DNA from: Rhodothermia bacterium
GTDB taxonomy: Bacteria; Bacteroidota; Rhodothermia; Rhodothermales; JAAAOL01
Direction of reading: 5' to 3'
DNA: 46,614 nucleotides
NCBI GenBank assembly: GCA_030428385.1
Contig: JAUIDY010000039.1
Span: forward strand, 1-46,614
Position 1 is the first letter of the stretch; every line of letters begins with the position of its first letter. A model generated the notes under the pieces. It worked only from the letters and a program-made list of their open reading frames with translations, was not told the origin of the DNA and did not search any database. Below, piece after piece: positions 40,883 to 46,614 of the stretch. Both the position numbers and the translations under genes were made by a program.

Positions 40883-41269
40883 GTGGCGCGAAAGCTCTAT
40901 CATATCGCCCGGCTGGTGCTGGTGCTGAGTGTCCTGCTTAGCACCCAGAGCCTGATTATGGTACAGATCGCCTTTAAGGTGCGGCAGGATTACATCATCG
41001 AGCGGCTCTGTGTGAACCGTGACCGGCCCGAGATGAACTGCGACGGCTTCTGCCAACTCACCAAGATGATGCAGGAGAAGCACGATCAGGAACAGCAAGA
41101 CCGCGCGGCGGTGCTCGAACTACTGATCTCGTCTGTCCACGCGATGCTGCCGGTCACCGGTTTTCTTGTGGCTCCTCCCATTAAGCGGCCAGACTATGCC
41201 CCGTTTATCGCCGGATCTCCGGCGCAGGGCGTGCTCGCCGACGTGTTTGTCCCCCCTCGCAGCGTGTAG
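40883..41269 (+). CDS. Small membrane protein with CxNxDxPxxxCxGxC motif
   Basis: A 128-residue protein with a GTG start at 40883. Residues about 5-30 form one hydrophobic segment; then comes RLCVNRDRPEMNCDGFCQL with Cys43, Cys53 and Cys57, and an amphipathic Lys/Glu-rich helix. Small proteins with this C(x9)CxGxC pattern are common in Bacteroidota and, as I recall, tend to lie beside copper-related genes. Here it is the first gene of a same-strand run that includes MbnP, MbnH, SCO1 and PCu(A)C. The cysteines suggest metal or thiol chemistry at the membrane. Function is inference from context only. Confidence 0.72.
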   Translation: MARKLYHIARLVLVLSVLLSTQSLIMVQIAFKVRQDYIIERLCVNRDRPEMNCDGFCQLTKMMQEKHDQEQQDRAAVLELLISSVHAMLPVTGFLVAPPIKRPDYAPFIAGSPAQGVLADVFVPPRSV

Positions 41270-41480: not shown

Positions 41481-42335
41481 ATGATGCACACGCTTAAGAA
41501 ATTGTTTTTGCCCCTCCTCTTCGTCGGCACGCTGGTGCTGACGGGCTGTGAGGCCAACAATATGGACGACGAAACCACCACGCTCATGCTGCGGCTCCAA
41601 CCAACCGTCGGCACGCAGGACCTCTCGTCCGATCCGGCTACCGTTTATACCATCGGCGACCAGAATCTCACCTTCGGCTCGGCGCGCATGTATATCTCCG
41701 AGATAACGCTCCTCCGGGACAACGGCGAAGAAGTCACGTTCACGGGCGAGACGATCACCGTTCCGGCCAAGAACGAAAACGACGAAACCATCACCCACAC
41801 CACCAGCGACCTCTTTATCCTCGCCAAGCATGACGCGGGCGACGAGATGTTCACGCTGGGAGAAGTCCCGGCAGGTGTGTACGAAGGTGTCCGTTTTAAG
41901 CTGGGCATCACCGGGACAAACAACAACATCGACCCGTCGCAGGTGCCCGCCGGGCATCCGCTGGCCAAGCAGACCGACAAGAACAACCACTGGTCGTGGA
42001 ACGCGGGCTTCATCTACCTCCGCATCGACGGGCTGCTGGACCTGGACGGTGATGGCACCGTGGAGACCAGCGACGAAGCGGGGTGGAACGTCCACCTCGG
42101 CACGCCCAACTTTGCGCAGGTGATCGAACTCGACGAGACGTTCACGCTGGACGGCGACGGGATGCAAACCCTGCACCTTATTGCCGACTACGCCCGGTTT
42201 GTGGAAGATGTGGACTTCTCCGATCCGGCGCAGCGCATCTGCCATACCATGAACAACCTGCCCGTCGCGCAGAAAGTGGCGGCAGACATCAGCGGGGCGT
42301 TTATGCTGCATGGCATCCATGACGGCCACAACTAG
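41481..42335 (+). CDS. mbnP: MbnP-family copper-binding lipoprotein
   Basis: A 284-residue lipoprotein; ATGs at 41481 and 41484 both give a signal ending in LVLTGC (Cys23). The mature part is beta-rich with an acidic stretch. It carries the family core WSWNAGFIYLRIDG with Trp171 and Trp173, preceded by a His (NNHW), and a late ICHTMNN segment. MbnP/CorA-type proteins bind copper using histidines plus a kynurenine made from a tryptophan by the partner MbnH. The next gene is an MbnH-type di-heme protein, which strengthens the call. There is no methanobactin precursor nearby, so the role is likely general copper handling. Which Trp is modified cannot be decided here. Confidence 0.85.
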   Translation: MMHTLKKLFLPLLFVGTLVLTGCEANNMDDETTTLMLRLQPTVGTQDLSSDPATVYTIGDQNLTFGSARMYISEITLLRDNGEEVTFTGETITVPAKNENDETITHTTSDLFILAKHDAGDEMFTLGEVPAGVYEGVRFKLGITGTNNNIDPSQVPAGHPLAKQTDKNNHWSWNAGFIYLRIDGLLDLDGDGTVETSDEAGWNVHLGTPNFAQVIELDETFTLDGDGMQTLHLIADYARFVEDVDFSDPAQRICHTMNNLPVAQKVAADISGAFMLHGIHDGHN

Positions 42336-42387
42336 ACGGAAGCCGGGGCGAAGGCGCTGTCCTTCGCCCCACGCACCGGATCTGCCG

Positions 42388-43386
42388 ATGGAAACCCGCC
42401 GTTGTGCCTGGCTGCTCATTGCACTGGCCGTGTGTATTGCCGGCTGCGACGCCTTGAGCGCGTCCGAAGAACCGGAGGTGGTGCAGGTGACCGTGCCGGA
42501 CGGCTTCGACCCCGTGCCGATTCCGGCCTTCAACCCGCTCACCGCCGCCAAAGTCGAACTCGGACGCCAGCTTTTCTCCGACCCGATCCTGTCGCGGACG
42601 GAGGCGGTGTCGTGTGCCTCATGCCACGAGGCGACGCGCTTCTTCATCGACGGCAAGCCACGGAGCATCGGGGTGGAAGGGCGCGAGGGGTTGCGCAATG
42701 CGCCATCGCTCCTGAACGTGGCGTACCAGCGGCTGCTGTTCTGGGACGGCGGTTCGCAGACGCTGGAGTCGCAGGTGCTGGCCCCGCTGGAAAACGAGGC
42801 GGAGATGGACCTCCCGCTCGACGCCGTGCTGGAGCGGCTGATGAACCACCCGGACTATCCGACCCGGTTCGTAGAGGTGTTCGGCGAAGGGCCGTCCATC
42901 CCAACGCTGACGCAGGCCATCGCCGCCTTCGAGCGGACGCTGGTTTCCACTGGCTCGCGCTACGACCGTTTTCAAACAGGCGACACGCAGGCGCTGACCA
43001 CACTCGAACGCGAGGGGGAAGCGTTGTTCTTCGGGCGCGCACAGTGCAGCACTTGCCACAGCGGCTTCCTTCTGACGAACCAGCAGTTTGAAAACAACGG
43101 CCTGCGTCCCACGGAGGCCGACTCGGGCCGTGCCCGCATTACCTTGAATCCTCAGGATGTGGGCCGATTTAAGGTGCCGTCGCTGCGCAATGTGGCGTGG
43201 ACCGCGCCCTACATGCACGACGGGCGTTTCGCCACCCTAGAAGCCGTGGTGGCACACTACGACGCAGGCGGCGAGGGAACGCAAAACCAACATCCGCGCA
43301 TCCAGCCGCTCCATCTTTCGACGCAAGAAAAAGACGCCCTGGTCGCGTTTCTGCACACGCTGACCGACGAGGCGCTCATTCCTTGA
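42388..43386 (+). CDS. mbnH: MbnH-type di-heme cytochrome c peroxidase family lipoprotein
   Basis: A 332-residue lipoprotein. The ATG at 42388 gives the lipobox CIAGC (Cys20). Two heme c sites are visible: CASCH at 76-80 and CSTCH at 220-224. Around them are the cytochrome c peroxidase features NAPSLLNVAY, FWDGGSQTLESQ, QVLAPLENEAEM, VPSLRNVAWTAPYMHDGRF and LDxL-type C-terminal helix. Of this family, MbnH uses H2O2 to form a bis-Fe(IV) state that oxidises a Trp of MbnP to kynurenine. The adjacent mbnP gene, 52 bases upstream, makes MbnH more likely than a plain peroxidase. Requires periplasmic cytochrome c maturation, genes for which are not in the window. Confidence 0.85.
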   Translation: METRRCAWLLIALAVCIAGCDALSASEEPEVVQVTVPDGFDPVPIPAFNPLTAAKVELGRQLFSDPILSRTEAVSCASCHEATRFFIDGKPRSIGVEGREGLRNAPSLLNVAYQRLLFWDGGSQTLESQVLAPLENEAEMDLPLDAVLERLMNHPDYPTRFVEVFGEGPSIPTLTQAIAAFERTLVSTGSRYDRFQTGDTQALTTLEREGEALFFGRAQCSTCHSGFLLTNQQFENNGLRPTEADSGRARITLNPQDVGRFKVPSLRNVAWTAPYMHDGRFATLEAVVAHYDAGGEGTQNQHPRIQPLHLSTQEKDALVAFLHTLTDEALIP

Positions 43387-43387
43387 C

Positions 43388-44242
43388 ATGAACGATTTTA
43401 TGCGATCATACTTCTCCCCCAAAGCGTGGCATGTCCTGGTGATGGTGCTATTGCTGCCGCTGTCCAGTTGCGTGCCGGACGACCTGACGGGCTACGACTT
43501 CAAGCAGTTTCAGCCGCCGTCTACGCTTCCCGATGATCCGGGCAACGTGCTCGTCGGCGAGCAGGAAGCGATGGGAGTAACCGTGGCGCTCTACATCGAC
43601 AAGGGCGCACACACGGGCTACAACCGCCTCCGCGTACAACTCACCGAGGCTGCCGGAGCAACGGCGATTACCACGGCCCGGGTCGATTTTACGCCGACGT
43701 ACGAACTGGATGGGGCGATGCGGGCGGTGCCGTTTCACAACCCCGCGACGAACCAGGCCAATGCCGACGACTTCTTCGAGGGCGGGGCCTTTTTCCTGCC
43801 ACCAGCGCCCGACGCCGGAACGTTCGCGCTGGACGTGCGCTTCGACACCGACGATGGACGCACGGGCACCGTCGTGTTTCCGCTGACCGTGGAGGAGACG
43901 CTGTGGATGCAGCGTGTGGACGGACCGGACGGGCGCTACTACGTCTCGTGGGTCCACCCCGAGCGGCCCGAAGTGGGCGACAACGTGTTCGAGGTGGCGC
44001 TGCACCGCGAGCCCGACTATGCCTCGATTTCTGAGGTGACACTGGATCTGTACCCCTACATGGACATGGGCGGCGGCGACGGCCACTCGACGCCGTATCA
44101 AGCCCCGGTGCATAAAAACGGCGGGGCCTACAGCGGCACGGTCAACTTCATCATGTCGGGCGGGTGGGACATGACGGTGTTTGTGCAACATCCCGACGGA
44201 ACGGTGAACACCGTACTTTTTGAAGGCTACACGGTCTTTTAG
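43388..44242 (+). CDS. Met/His-rich lipoprotein, FixH/YtkA-like C-terminal domain
   Basis: A 284-residue lipoprotein starting one base after the mbnH stop (TGAcATG), so clearly in the same operon. The signal ends at LPLSSC (Cys28). The N-terminal half is a beta-rich domain of unknown type. The C-terminal half contains YPYMDMGGGDGHSTPYQAPV followed by GGAYSGTVNFIMSGGWDMTV, the layout of YtkA/FixH-like domains that carry a MxMGxxxH metal site. The Met/His cluster suggests Cu(I) or Cu(II) binding. No experimental homologue is known to me; the copper role is inferred from residues and neighbours. Confidence 0.75.
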   Translation: MNDFMRSYFSPKAWHVLVMVLLLPLSSCVPDDLTGYDFKQFQPPSTLPDDPGNVLVGEQEAMGVTVALYIDKGAHTGYNRLRVQLTEAAGATAITTARVDFTPTYELDGAMRAVPFHNPATNQANADDFFEGGAFFLPPAPDAGTFALDVRFDTDDGRTGTVVFPLTVEETLWMQRVDGPDGRYYVSWVHPERPEVGDNVFEVALHREPDYASISEVTLDLYPYMDMGGGDGHSTPYQAPVHKNGGAYSGTVNFIMSGGWDMTVFVQHPDGTVNTVLFEGYTVF

Positions 44243-44244
44243 CC

Positions 44245-44865
44245 ATGACTTATCTCGATCACATAACACGCAACGCAACACGGCTTTTCCTCGCTGCTTG
44301 CCTCATGTGGGCGGCGTCCTGTCAGCCAAAACCCGATCATCTGGCTGTGGAAGACGACCTCACCGACACGACGTGGAGCCTCGTGGATGAGGACAGCGCT
44401 GTTGTAGCGTTCCCCAACGCCTTCTTGGGCAAACCGACGCTGGTGAGCGCCATCTACACGCACTGCCCCGACGTCTGCCTGATGACGATGGCGAACATGA
44501 AAAACATCCGCCGCGCCCTCGGGCCCGACACCGCCGCCGTGCAGTTCGTCACCGTCTCCTTCGATCCGACGCGCGACACGCCCGCCGTGCTGCGGCGCTA
44601 TGCCGAGACGTGGAAGACGGGCAACGACTGGTCGCTCCTCACGGGCGACTCTACCGAAGTGGCCCGCCTGATGACCCGGCTGGGCATCCGTTACGAAGTC
44701 TCCCGACGCGACACGCTGGTATCTGGCGCAGTTACGTATTCGGTCAGCCATACCGACAAGGCACTACTCCTTGATGACCAAGGGCGCGTGGTGGAGACGT
44801 ATGGCGGCAGCGCCGCCATCCCCGACATGGTCGCCGAAGACATTCGTGCGCTGCATCAACCCTAA
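44245..44865 (+). CDS. SCO1/SenC family copper chaperone lipoprotein
   Basis: A 206-residue thioredoxin-fold lipoprotein (lipobox WAASC, Cys26) that would deliver copper to, or reduce thiols of, the CuA site of cytochrome c oxidase. The copper site is complete: Cys74 and Cys78 in THCPDVCLMT and His169 in VSHTDKALL. SFDPTRDTPAVL is the family signature strand. It begins 2 bases after the stop of the preceding lipoprotein and 9 bases ahead of the PCu(A)C gene. No oxidase subunit is in the window. Confidence 0.94.
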   Translation: MTYLDHITRNATRLFLAACLMWAASCQPKPDHLAVEDDLTDTTWSLVDEDSAVVAFPNAFLGKPTLVSAIYTHCPDVCLMTMANMKNIRRALGPDTAAVQFVTVSFDPTRDTPAVLRRYAETWKTGNDWSLLTGDSTEVARLMTRLGIRYEVSRRDTLVSGAVTYSVSHTDKALLLDDQGRVVETYGGSAAIPDMVAEDIRALHQP

Positions 44866-44874
44866 TCCTTAGCC

Positions 44875-45387
44875 ATGAATCACTTTTTATTGTACCTGCT
44901 TCTGTTTTTTGCCCCGATCGTGCTTGCGGGTTGTCAGCCCGAACAGGAACCTGCTCCTGCTGAATCGGCCCCGCCTTCGTCCGCAGGGACGGCGTCATCA
45001 GAACTCACCCTCGCCGATCCTTTTTCGCCCATCGCGCCCGAAGGCGGCACGGGCGGGCTGTTCGTCCAGATCCACGGTGGTGCTTCGCCTGACACGCTCC
45101 TCGGGGCGCAGTTTGACGGAGCCCGCCGCGTGGAACTGCATGAAACCTACGCCACCGACGACGGCCTGCGCGGGATGCGTCAAATCAACGGGTTGCCCAT
45201 CCCGGCAGGCGAAACGGTCGCCCTGCGCCCCGGCAGCTTCCACCTGATGCTGATGGGCCTGCAGGCCCCGCTCACGGCAGGCGACACCATCACCGTCACG
45301 CTCGACTTTGCGCAGGCGGGCGTCGTTCCGCTCCGTGTGCCCGTTTACGCCCCCGAAGACCTTCCGACGGCGCACGCCAATCATTAA
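44875..45387 (+). CDS. PCu(A)C-type copper chaperone lipoprotein
   Basis: A 170-residue lipoprotein (lipobox VLAGC, Cys20) with a Ser/Pro/Ala-rich linker and a PCu(A)C domain. The Cu(I) motif has the exact canonical spacing: His89, Met101, His123 and Met125 in VELHET, GMRQ and FHLMLMGL. In other bacteria PCu(A)C passes Cu(I) to the oxidase CuA site together with SCO1, and the two are adjacent here with 9 bases between them. The C terminus, HANH, adds two further His residues. Confidence 0.94.
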   Translation: MNHFLLYLLLFFAPIVLAGCQPEQEPAPAESAPPSSAGTASSELTLADPFSPIAPEGGTGGLFVQIHGGASPDTLLGAQFDGARRVELHETYATDDGLRGMRQINGLPIPAGETVALRPGSFHLMLMGLQAPLTAGDTITVTLDFAQAGVVPLRVPVYAPEDLPTAHANH

Positions 45388-45410: not shown

Positions 45411-46614
45411 ATGTCACACTCGTTTCCAAGAGTACCGATTCGGCCGGTGTCTTTCTTCGGAATGGCGCTGGTGCTGCTCCTCGTGGCGGTTGCTCCGGCG
45501 TATGCGCAGCCGCTCATTGATGCTGACGAGGAGCGGCACCCGCTGCGGCATTTTGTACTGGCCAAGACAGAGGCGACGCAATCCCGCGCCAGCCTTGCCT
45601 TCGACGCGACATACTACCACCTCCAGATCGACTTCGACTTCGCCCAAAAGCGCATCAGCGGCACGACGCACGCGGTGGGTTCTTTCACCCAGCCGGAAGC
45701 CCAGTTGCATCTCGACCTCCTCTCGAATATGCACGTCTCGGCGGTGCGCAGCGCAGCAGGCGAAGCGCTCTCGTTTAGCCACGCGAACGACTTGCTTACC
45801 ATCGACCTCGGCAGAACGGTGGCCACAGGTGAGGTCTTGGCGGTGGAGATCGACTACGAGGGCCAGCCGCAGGCACCCGGTTTCGGCGCATTTGTGTTTA
45901 CCTCGACGGACGGGCAGCCCGTGGCGTGGACGCTCTCCGAGCCGTACGGTGCGCGGGCGTGGTGGCCCGGCAAGGATCATCCCTCGGACAAGGCCGACTC
46001 GGCGCGGGTGACGGTGACGGTGCCCGAAGGGTTGCGTGTTGGCTCGAACGGGCGGCTGGCATCGGTGACGACAGAGGCGGGCACGGTGACGTATGACTGG
46101 GTGACGCAGTATCCCATCGCGCCATACTTGCTGTCGCTGGCGGTGGGGCCGTACGCCGCCTTCGAACAGGTGTACCGACGACCGGACTCGCTGGCGGCTA
46201 CGCTCGGGCCGCTCACGCTGCCCATTTTGCACTACAAATACACGTTGGGTGGCACCGCAACGCTGCCCGAGGGCTGGGCTGAGGTGGTGGATGCCCTCGC
46301 CGTCTTCGAGTGGTGGTTCGGCCCCTACCCCTTCGCCGAGGAGAAGTACGGCCACGCCGAGTTTGACTGGGGGGGCGGTATGGAGCACCAGACCATGACC
46401 TCGATGGGCGGGACGAACATCGGGCTGATGACGCACGAACTGGCCCACCAGTGGTTTGGCGATGCCGTGACGACCCGCACATGGCCGCACCTGTGGCTCA
46501 ATGAAGGCTTCGCCTCCTACGCCGAGGTGTTGTATTGGGAAGCGCGGGCGGATCGCTATCCCGGTTCGGCAGGGGCGGTGCTGCAGTTCGACCAGAGTTC
46601 GGCACGTTCGGCGC
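45411..46614 (+). CDS. Secreted M1 family aminopeptidase, 3' end beyond the window
   Basis: At least 401 codons, open to the window edge. The ATG at 45411 gives a signal peptide ending near PAYAQ (about 33). The N-terminal beta domain is typical of M1 enzymes. The catalytic elements are GGGMEHQT (exopeptidase motif, about residue 322), HELAHQWFGD (zinc site, 342-351) and the third ligand Glu365 in LNEGFASYAE. Only the helical C-terminal domain is missing. It begins 24 bases after the PCu(A)C stop and probably shares its transcript; a direct link to copper is not evident. A long open frame on the opposite strand is its shadow. Confidence 0.92.
   Translation, partial: MSHSFPRVPIRPVSFFGMALVLLLVAVAPAYAQPLIDADEERHPLRHFVLAKTEATQSRASLAFDATYYHLQIDFDFAQKRISGTTHAVGSFTQPEAQLHLDLLSNMHVSAVRSAAGEALSFSHANDLLTIDLGRTVATGEVLAVEIDYEGQPQAPGFGAFVFTSTDGQPVAWTLSEPYGARAWWPGKDHPSDKADSARVTVTVPEGLRVGSNGRLASVTTEAGTVTYDWVTQYPIAPYLLSLAVGPYAAFEQVYRRPDSLAATLGPLTLPILHYKYTLGGTATLPEGWAEVVDALAVFEWWFGPYPFAEEKYGHAEFDWGGGMEHQTMTSMGGTNIGLMTHELAHQWFGDAVTTRTWPHLWLNEGFASYAEVLYWEARADRYPGSAGAVLQFDQSSARSA

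Follow-up and report, generated by a model that had tools for sequence, protein, structure and literature searches.

An MbnP-MbnH gene pair in a probable copper-acquisition operon of a Rhodothermia bacterium

The window examined in this work (i.e., the entire stretch of 46,614 nucleotides from contig JAUIDY010000039.1 of a Rhodothermia bacterium) contains an MbnP-MbnH gene pair followed by a set of copper-related genes (Table 1). This cluster is probably the envelope portion of an operon for copper acquisition that serves respiratory copper enzymes, in which MbnH would make a kynurenine on MbnP. Copper would enter through an OprC-type outer-membrane receptor, whose gene closes the operon. MbnH would store oxidizing equivalents from H2O2 on its two hemes and use these to oxidize Trp171 of MbnP to kynurenine, and the kynurenine-bearing MbnP may act as a tight Cu(I) carrier. 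From there, copper may reach the CuA site of a caa3-type oxidase, either directly or via the YtkA-like protein, PCu(A)C, and SCO1. The observations behind this scheme are gene content, gene order, motifs, fold, and conservation, from which the Trp-to-kynurenine change, Cu(I) binding by MbnP, and the order of copper transfer are predicted.

Table 1. Features of the MbnP-MbnH cluster, numbered from the first nucleotide of the window; the last row uses coordinates extended into contig C35.
Feature	Position	Strand	Remarks
Small upstream ORF with Cys, possibly part of this region	40883..41269	+	No Pfam or NCBIfam match
MbnP-family lipoprotein, 284 aa	41481..42335	+	Signal peptide and lipobox LTGC (Cys23); ATG at 41481
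WxW motif, Trp171 (candidate kynurenine) and Trp173	41991..41999	+	W171-S-W173
His205, probable copper ligand, xHxG motif	42093..42095	+	Aligned with VHVG of 7l6g
His255, probable second copper ligand	42243..42245	+	CHT, compared with CMS (Met) in methanotroph MbnP
MbnH-type di-heme lipoprotein	42388..43386	+	Start at 42388 favored over 42310
Heme-binding motif 1, CASCH	42613..42627	+	Cys, Cys, and His invariant in 41/41 aligned MbnH
Heme-binding motif 2, CSTCH	43045..43059	+	Cys, Cys, and His invariant in 41/41 aligned MbnH
Tyr291, MauG/MbnH-type axial heme ligand position	43258..43260	+	Tyr in 41/41; aligned with Tyr of 6e1c
YtkA/CtaK-like lipoprotein	43388..44242	+	PF13115, 42.2 bits; 1-bp gap after MbnH
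SCO1/SenC lipoprotein	44245..44865	+	PF02630, 100 bits; CPDVC and downstream His
PCu(A)C copper chaperone	44875..45387	+	PF04314, 101.9 bits; intact H..M..HxM (H89, M101, H123xM125)
M1-family peptidase, interrupted by contig end	45411..46614	+	Resumes on contig C35; full frame 678 aa
OprC-type copper TonB receptor on C35	47461-49725		Starts 13 bp past the peptidase stop

For the first gene of the pair, profile searches gave a clear match to PF20243 (97.2 bits, E = 1.4e-27; cut-off 27). The initial annotation had read this gene as an MbnP-type lipoprotein with the segment WSWNAGFIYL, and both the lipobox and the segment (HWSWNAGFIYL, residues 170–180) are present. The second gene, described there as a di-heme lipoprotein with two CxxCH sites, matches CCP_MauG (190 bits, E = 4.4e-56) and the solved MbnH structure 6e1c (3.1e-48). 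Among NCBIfam models, the MbnP WxW equivalog TIGR04052 requires 140 bits; the window MbnP reaches 48.7 bits, compared with 291 bits for methanotroph MbnP and 275 bits for Paracoccus MbnP. For MbnH, TIGR04039 is the top NCBIfam match (252.8 bits), ahead of the MauG model TIGR03791 (219.2 bits), and is also below its cut-off of 362.85. The profile check that had been proposed for the pair therefore supports the family assignments, whereas the equivalog cut-offs were missed by both proteins, which places the two in the wider MbnP and MbnH families as a divergent subfamily. The limits given for the pair (41481–43386) coincide with the MbnP start codon and the end of the di-heme ORF. Between the two genes, the MbnH start at 42388 leaves a gap of 52 bp, and this start is favored because it provides a clean lipoprotein signal (METRR...CIAGC lipobox), whereas the ATG at 42310 overlaps MbnP.

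The fold assignment of MbnP is based on two comparisons. A phmmer search with MbnP alone found no match in the PDB. A profile of 20 MbnP sequences matched 7l6g, the MbnP of M. trichosporium (3.3e-9), and aligned the WSW of the window protein with the WNW of 7l6g. Moreover, when the AlphaFold model of MbnP (pLDDT 85.5) was compared with solved structures, the six chains of 7l6g were the only significant matches (probability 1.00), with modest TM-scores of 0.44–0.51.

In the crystal structure of MbnP, copper is reported to be bound by one His and one Met close to the kynurenine. When the signal region is set aside, His, Met, or Cys predominates among the 64 aligned WxW members at columns 205, 255, 169, and, to a lesser degree, 170. 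Column 205 is His in all 64 members, column 255 has 35 His and 26 Met, and column 169 has 48 Met and 14 Asn; the window MbnP has Asn at this last position. Around residue 255, the methanotroph members have GCMSG and the window MbnP has ICHTM. Judging from this alignment, column 255 is the likeliest equivalent of the Met ligand, and Met169 (Asn here) is the second candidate. A Met-to-His swap at the probable second ligand would produce a site composed of two His and kynurenine, as in CorA. Because the second ligand is probably His and not Met, copper binding may differ from that of the characterized MbnP. His at 255 is common across the wider MbnP family and not unique to the Rhodothermales clade. 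The conversion of Trp171 to kynurenine is predicted from the WxW motif together with the MauG-type partner.

It may be asked whether this conversion takes place at all, since the two histidines could bind copper in MbnP without kynurenine while MbnH acts on another substrate. His occupies the Met column in about half of the WxW members, including the window protein, and such a site could be strong enough unmodified. Furthermore, WxW is absent from 10 of the 74 MbnP family members, most of which still have a di-heme neighbor. However, W171 and W173 are invariant in all 19 window-type MbnP members and, with one truncated exception, every contig that extends far enough has an intact MbnH next to MbnP. 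We regard this alternative as improbable, although it ranks first among those considered here.

Several MbnP relatives without WxW were also observed. The genome of the window has a further MbnP/MbnH-type pair (G000:C159:8388-10587; L073 and L002), in which MbnP is without WxW (LWPAMMGGGTERYHYMRLEG) and the di-heme partner retains the Tyr. Members with WPxxMGG, akin to the MbnP of this second pair, are found in L123 and L145. In addition, five loci (L129, L130, L133, L134, and L138) contain divergent Bacteroidota PF20243 relatives without WxW (e.g., YWSGWGSYI); most of these have MbnH neighbors, and L129, L130, and L134 contain a second weak MbnP-like frame in tandem.

For the MbnH homologs, in addition to the heme-binding motifs and Tyr291, Glu139 is kept in 41 of 41 aligned sequences and Trp119 in 37 of 41; we take the latter position to be that of the inter-heme Trp of MauG. 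Classical peroxidases have Met where MauG and MbnH have the Tyr ligand, and a classical peroxidase identity is ruled out by the Tyr in this column.

Downstream of MbnH, the genes share one strand and are separated by 1 to 23 bp. The neighboring SCO1 and PCu(A)C genes reported in the initial annotation were recovered here; the YtkA-like gene, the M1 peptidase as a member of the run, and the OprC-type receptor on a neighboring contig are additions to it. In Bacillus subtilis, YtkA/CtaK cooperates with Sco in CuA assembly (PMC13344008). Upstream of MbnP, a small ORF comparable to that in the window occurs in many Bacteroidota loci. Contig C35 was found by searching the genome of the window with the receptor of a relative. 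The end of C35 has an exact overlap of 126 bases with the window from position 46478 onward, whereas the final eleven window bases contain mismatches. Based on this overlap, contigs C236 (the window) and C35 are very probably adjacent, in which case the cluster would have seven genes. An artifact of mis-joined contigs was ruled out, as a single contig extends through the PCu(A)C gene and the open peptidase frame spans the link to C35. The receptor (L083) has OprC as its best PDB match (8.1e-31) and TIGR01778 (OprC/NosA) as its top NCBIfam match, with a score (174.2 bits) below the cut-off of 472.45. It contains GACVDKM and DHWM, which correspond to the CxxxM and HxM that form the copper-binding site shown in OprC (PMC8610252). 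As for the predicted destination of the copper, a single caa3-type CuA oxidase is encoded in the genome; its COX2 carries CTEYCGTQHSGM with the CuA motif intact. Because a SCO-like gene adjoins the other genes of this oxidase within one operon, the MbnP-MbnH cluster is not the sole possible supplier.

To compare gene organization among relatives, 114 genomes of the order were searched, 22 of which match the window MbnP, and the window was compared with 18 loci of close relatives (40–58% identity). A single-protein MbnP query over the genome contigs found four loci only. All 15 relatives with complete sequence have MbnP, MbnH, YtkA, and OprC in the same order and on the same strand. SCO1 and PCu(A)C are present in only four loci, namely the window and three relatives. 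CxxxM is present in all 16 receptors, and HxM in all 15 receptors of sufficient length. No YtkA or OprC was found within approximately 7 kb of the sampled Bacteroidota pairs outside this clade. In L059 (G206:C65), MbnP is intact, the MbnH frame has only approximately 128 residues, and YtkA and OprC are absent; the maturase may have been lost naturally here while MbnP was retained. Small leader ORFs that resemble CruR are found in L055 (6809-7225) and upstream of MbnP in L057, L061, L062, and L066. These have a conserved Cys located 47–49 residues ahead of R(G/A)PP, a motif that ends 2–7 residues before the stop. The spacing is that of CruR, but there is a single Cys in place of CxxC, and a Pfam scan of two of these ORFs (L055 and L058) gave no match. 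For methanobactin biosynthesis, no MbnB homolog (PF05114) was found in the genome of the window or in the 114 genomes of the order. This is in line with the earlier statement that no methanobactin genes are visible, and a hidden methanobactin cluster was ruled out on the absence of MbnB.

The initial annotation left open whether the pair serves copper supply or detoxification. Supply is much better supported by the importer and the CuA/respiratory chaperones. A mainly protective role, in which MbnP holds surplus periplasmic copper and MbnH clears peroxide, is slightly less probable still than copper binding without kynurenine. This role would fit the placement of MbnH within the cytochrome c peroxidase/MauG superfamily, as well as the pair of Deinococcus radiodurans, which adjoins CopC and CopD, genes that are often annotated as copper resistance. 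However, Tyr291 marks MbnH as a MauG/MbnH-type enzyme and not a classical peroxidase. Moreover, the content of the conserved block, with an importer and chaperones and no recognized efflux component, makes detoxification the less likely role; efflux pumps, multicopper oxidases, and CopA were not observed in this block. Finally, import of a copper chelate made by other organisms (i.e., a stolen metallophore) in place of ionic copper is very unlikely. In its favor, the isolated methanotroph pairs lie near MbnT-like receptors (PMC3621798), but the receptor linked here, when judged against OprC, is OprC-like and has the ionic-copper site CxxxM-HxM.

Copper supply through the OprC-linked cluster therefore remains the preferred reading, and its general form is not new, because MbnP-MbnH pairs that lie apart from methanobactin operons and next to copper genes have already been reported. 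What is new is the OprC-linked operon of Rhodothermales together with the apparent replacement of Met by His at the probable second ligand of the copper site. Work from 2019–2021 reportedly demonstrated the kynurenine of MbnP and proposed a wide use in copper homeostasis. To our knowledge, the recipient of copper after passage through an OprC-type receptor in the outer membrane has not been established. In the order conserved in all 15 complete loci, the neighbors of an OprC-type receptor are a copper protein of the kynurenine type, the presumed maturase of this protein, and a lipoprotein of the CuA-assembly type, such that a complete route from import to oxidase becomes testable. The clade also provides, with Met or His at the probable ligand column, a natural swap for probing the contribution of kynurenine to copper binding. 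A more specific proposal is that kynurenine-modified MbnP is the dedicated periplasmic acceptor of OprC-imported copper in Rhodothermales, with a site of two His and kynurenine that has the same ligand set as CorA/MopE. We offer this proposal only tentatively and consider it rather doubtful; if true, the MbnP fold has reached this ligand set without marked sequence similarity to CorA/MopE.

Compared with the MbnP-MbnH pair of M. trichosporium OB3b (7l6g and 6e1c), the window pair has the same fold, WxW, invariant His, and adjacent MauG-like di-heme partner with a Tyr ligand. It differs in the absence of a methanobactin operon and of the four-Cys framework, in having His for the Met of the CMS motif, in scoring below the NCBIfam cut-offs, and in the linkage to an OprC-type receptor, YtkA, SCO1, and PCu(A)C. 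The CorA-CorB and MopE-SACCP systems of methanotrophs also have a kynurenine copper protein encoded beside a di-heme partner (PMC3912023). The ligands in CorA are His64, His114, and Kyn62 (PMC3912023), and a site of two His and kynurenine is likewise predicted for the window MbnP. However, CorA and MopE belong to another sequence family and are surface-associated.

That such a use of the pair might be special to this lineage, as had been supposed, is contradicted by its occurrence elsewhere (PMC3621798; PMC9426467), including plasmids of Paracoccus, Ideonella, and Deinococcus. Already in 2013, MbnP/MbnH pairs were described far beyond methanobactin producers, some of them near TonB receptors (PMC3621798). 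A Paracoccus seriniphilus plasmid has the arrangement MbnP-MbnH-copper uptake protein-PCuAC-SCO-SCO. As in the window, the pair is directly linked to PCuAC and SCO with no methanobactin genes beside it, but the MbnP is of the four-Cys type (275 bits for TIGR04052) and no YtkA or OprC is annotated in this stretch. On an Ideonella plasmid, the pair is found with DUF2946 and a TonB receptor, and on a Deinococcus plasmid with CopC/CopD. In five plasmid records (L107 and L110-L113), the di-heme genes adjacent to MbnP are labeled "methanobactin export MATE transporter MbnM"; based on the sequences checked (L107, L111, and L113), this label on MbnH-type genes is apparently a propagated naming error. 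PCuAC and ScoI also occur in a few operons of CrtA receptors (PMC12914433). Finally, the copper-responsive operons headed by CruR (DUF2946), described in 2022, hold OprC-type receptors, ScoI, PCuAC, and MbnPH-like genes (PMC9426467). These operons are mainly from Proteobacteria, and an R(G/A)PP leader ORF was not found next to the window MbnP. Nevertheless, the same guild of copper-uptake genes is present in both, and the operons of the relatives, like those of CruR, open with a small ORF that ends in R(G/A)PP.
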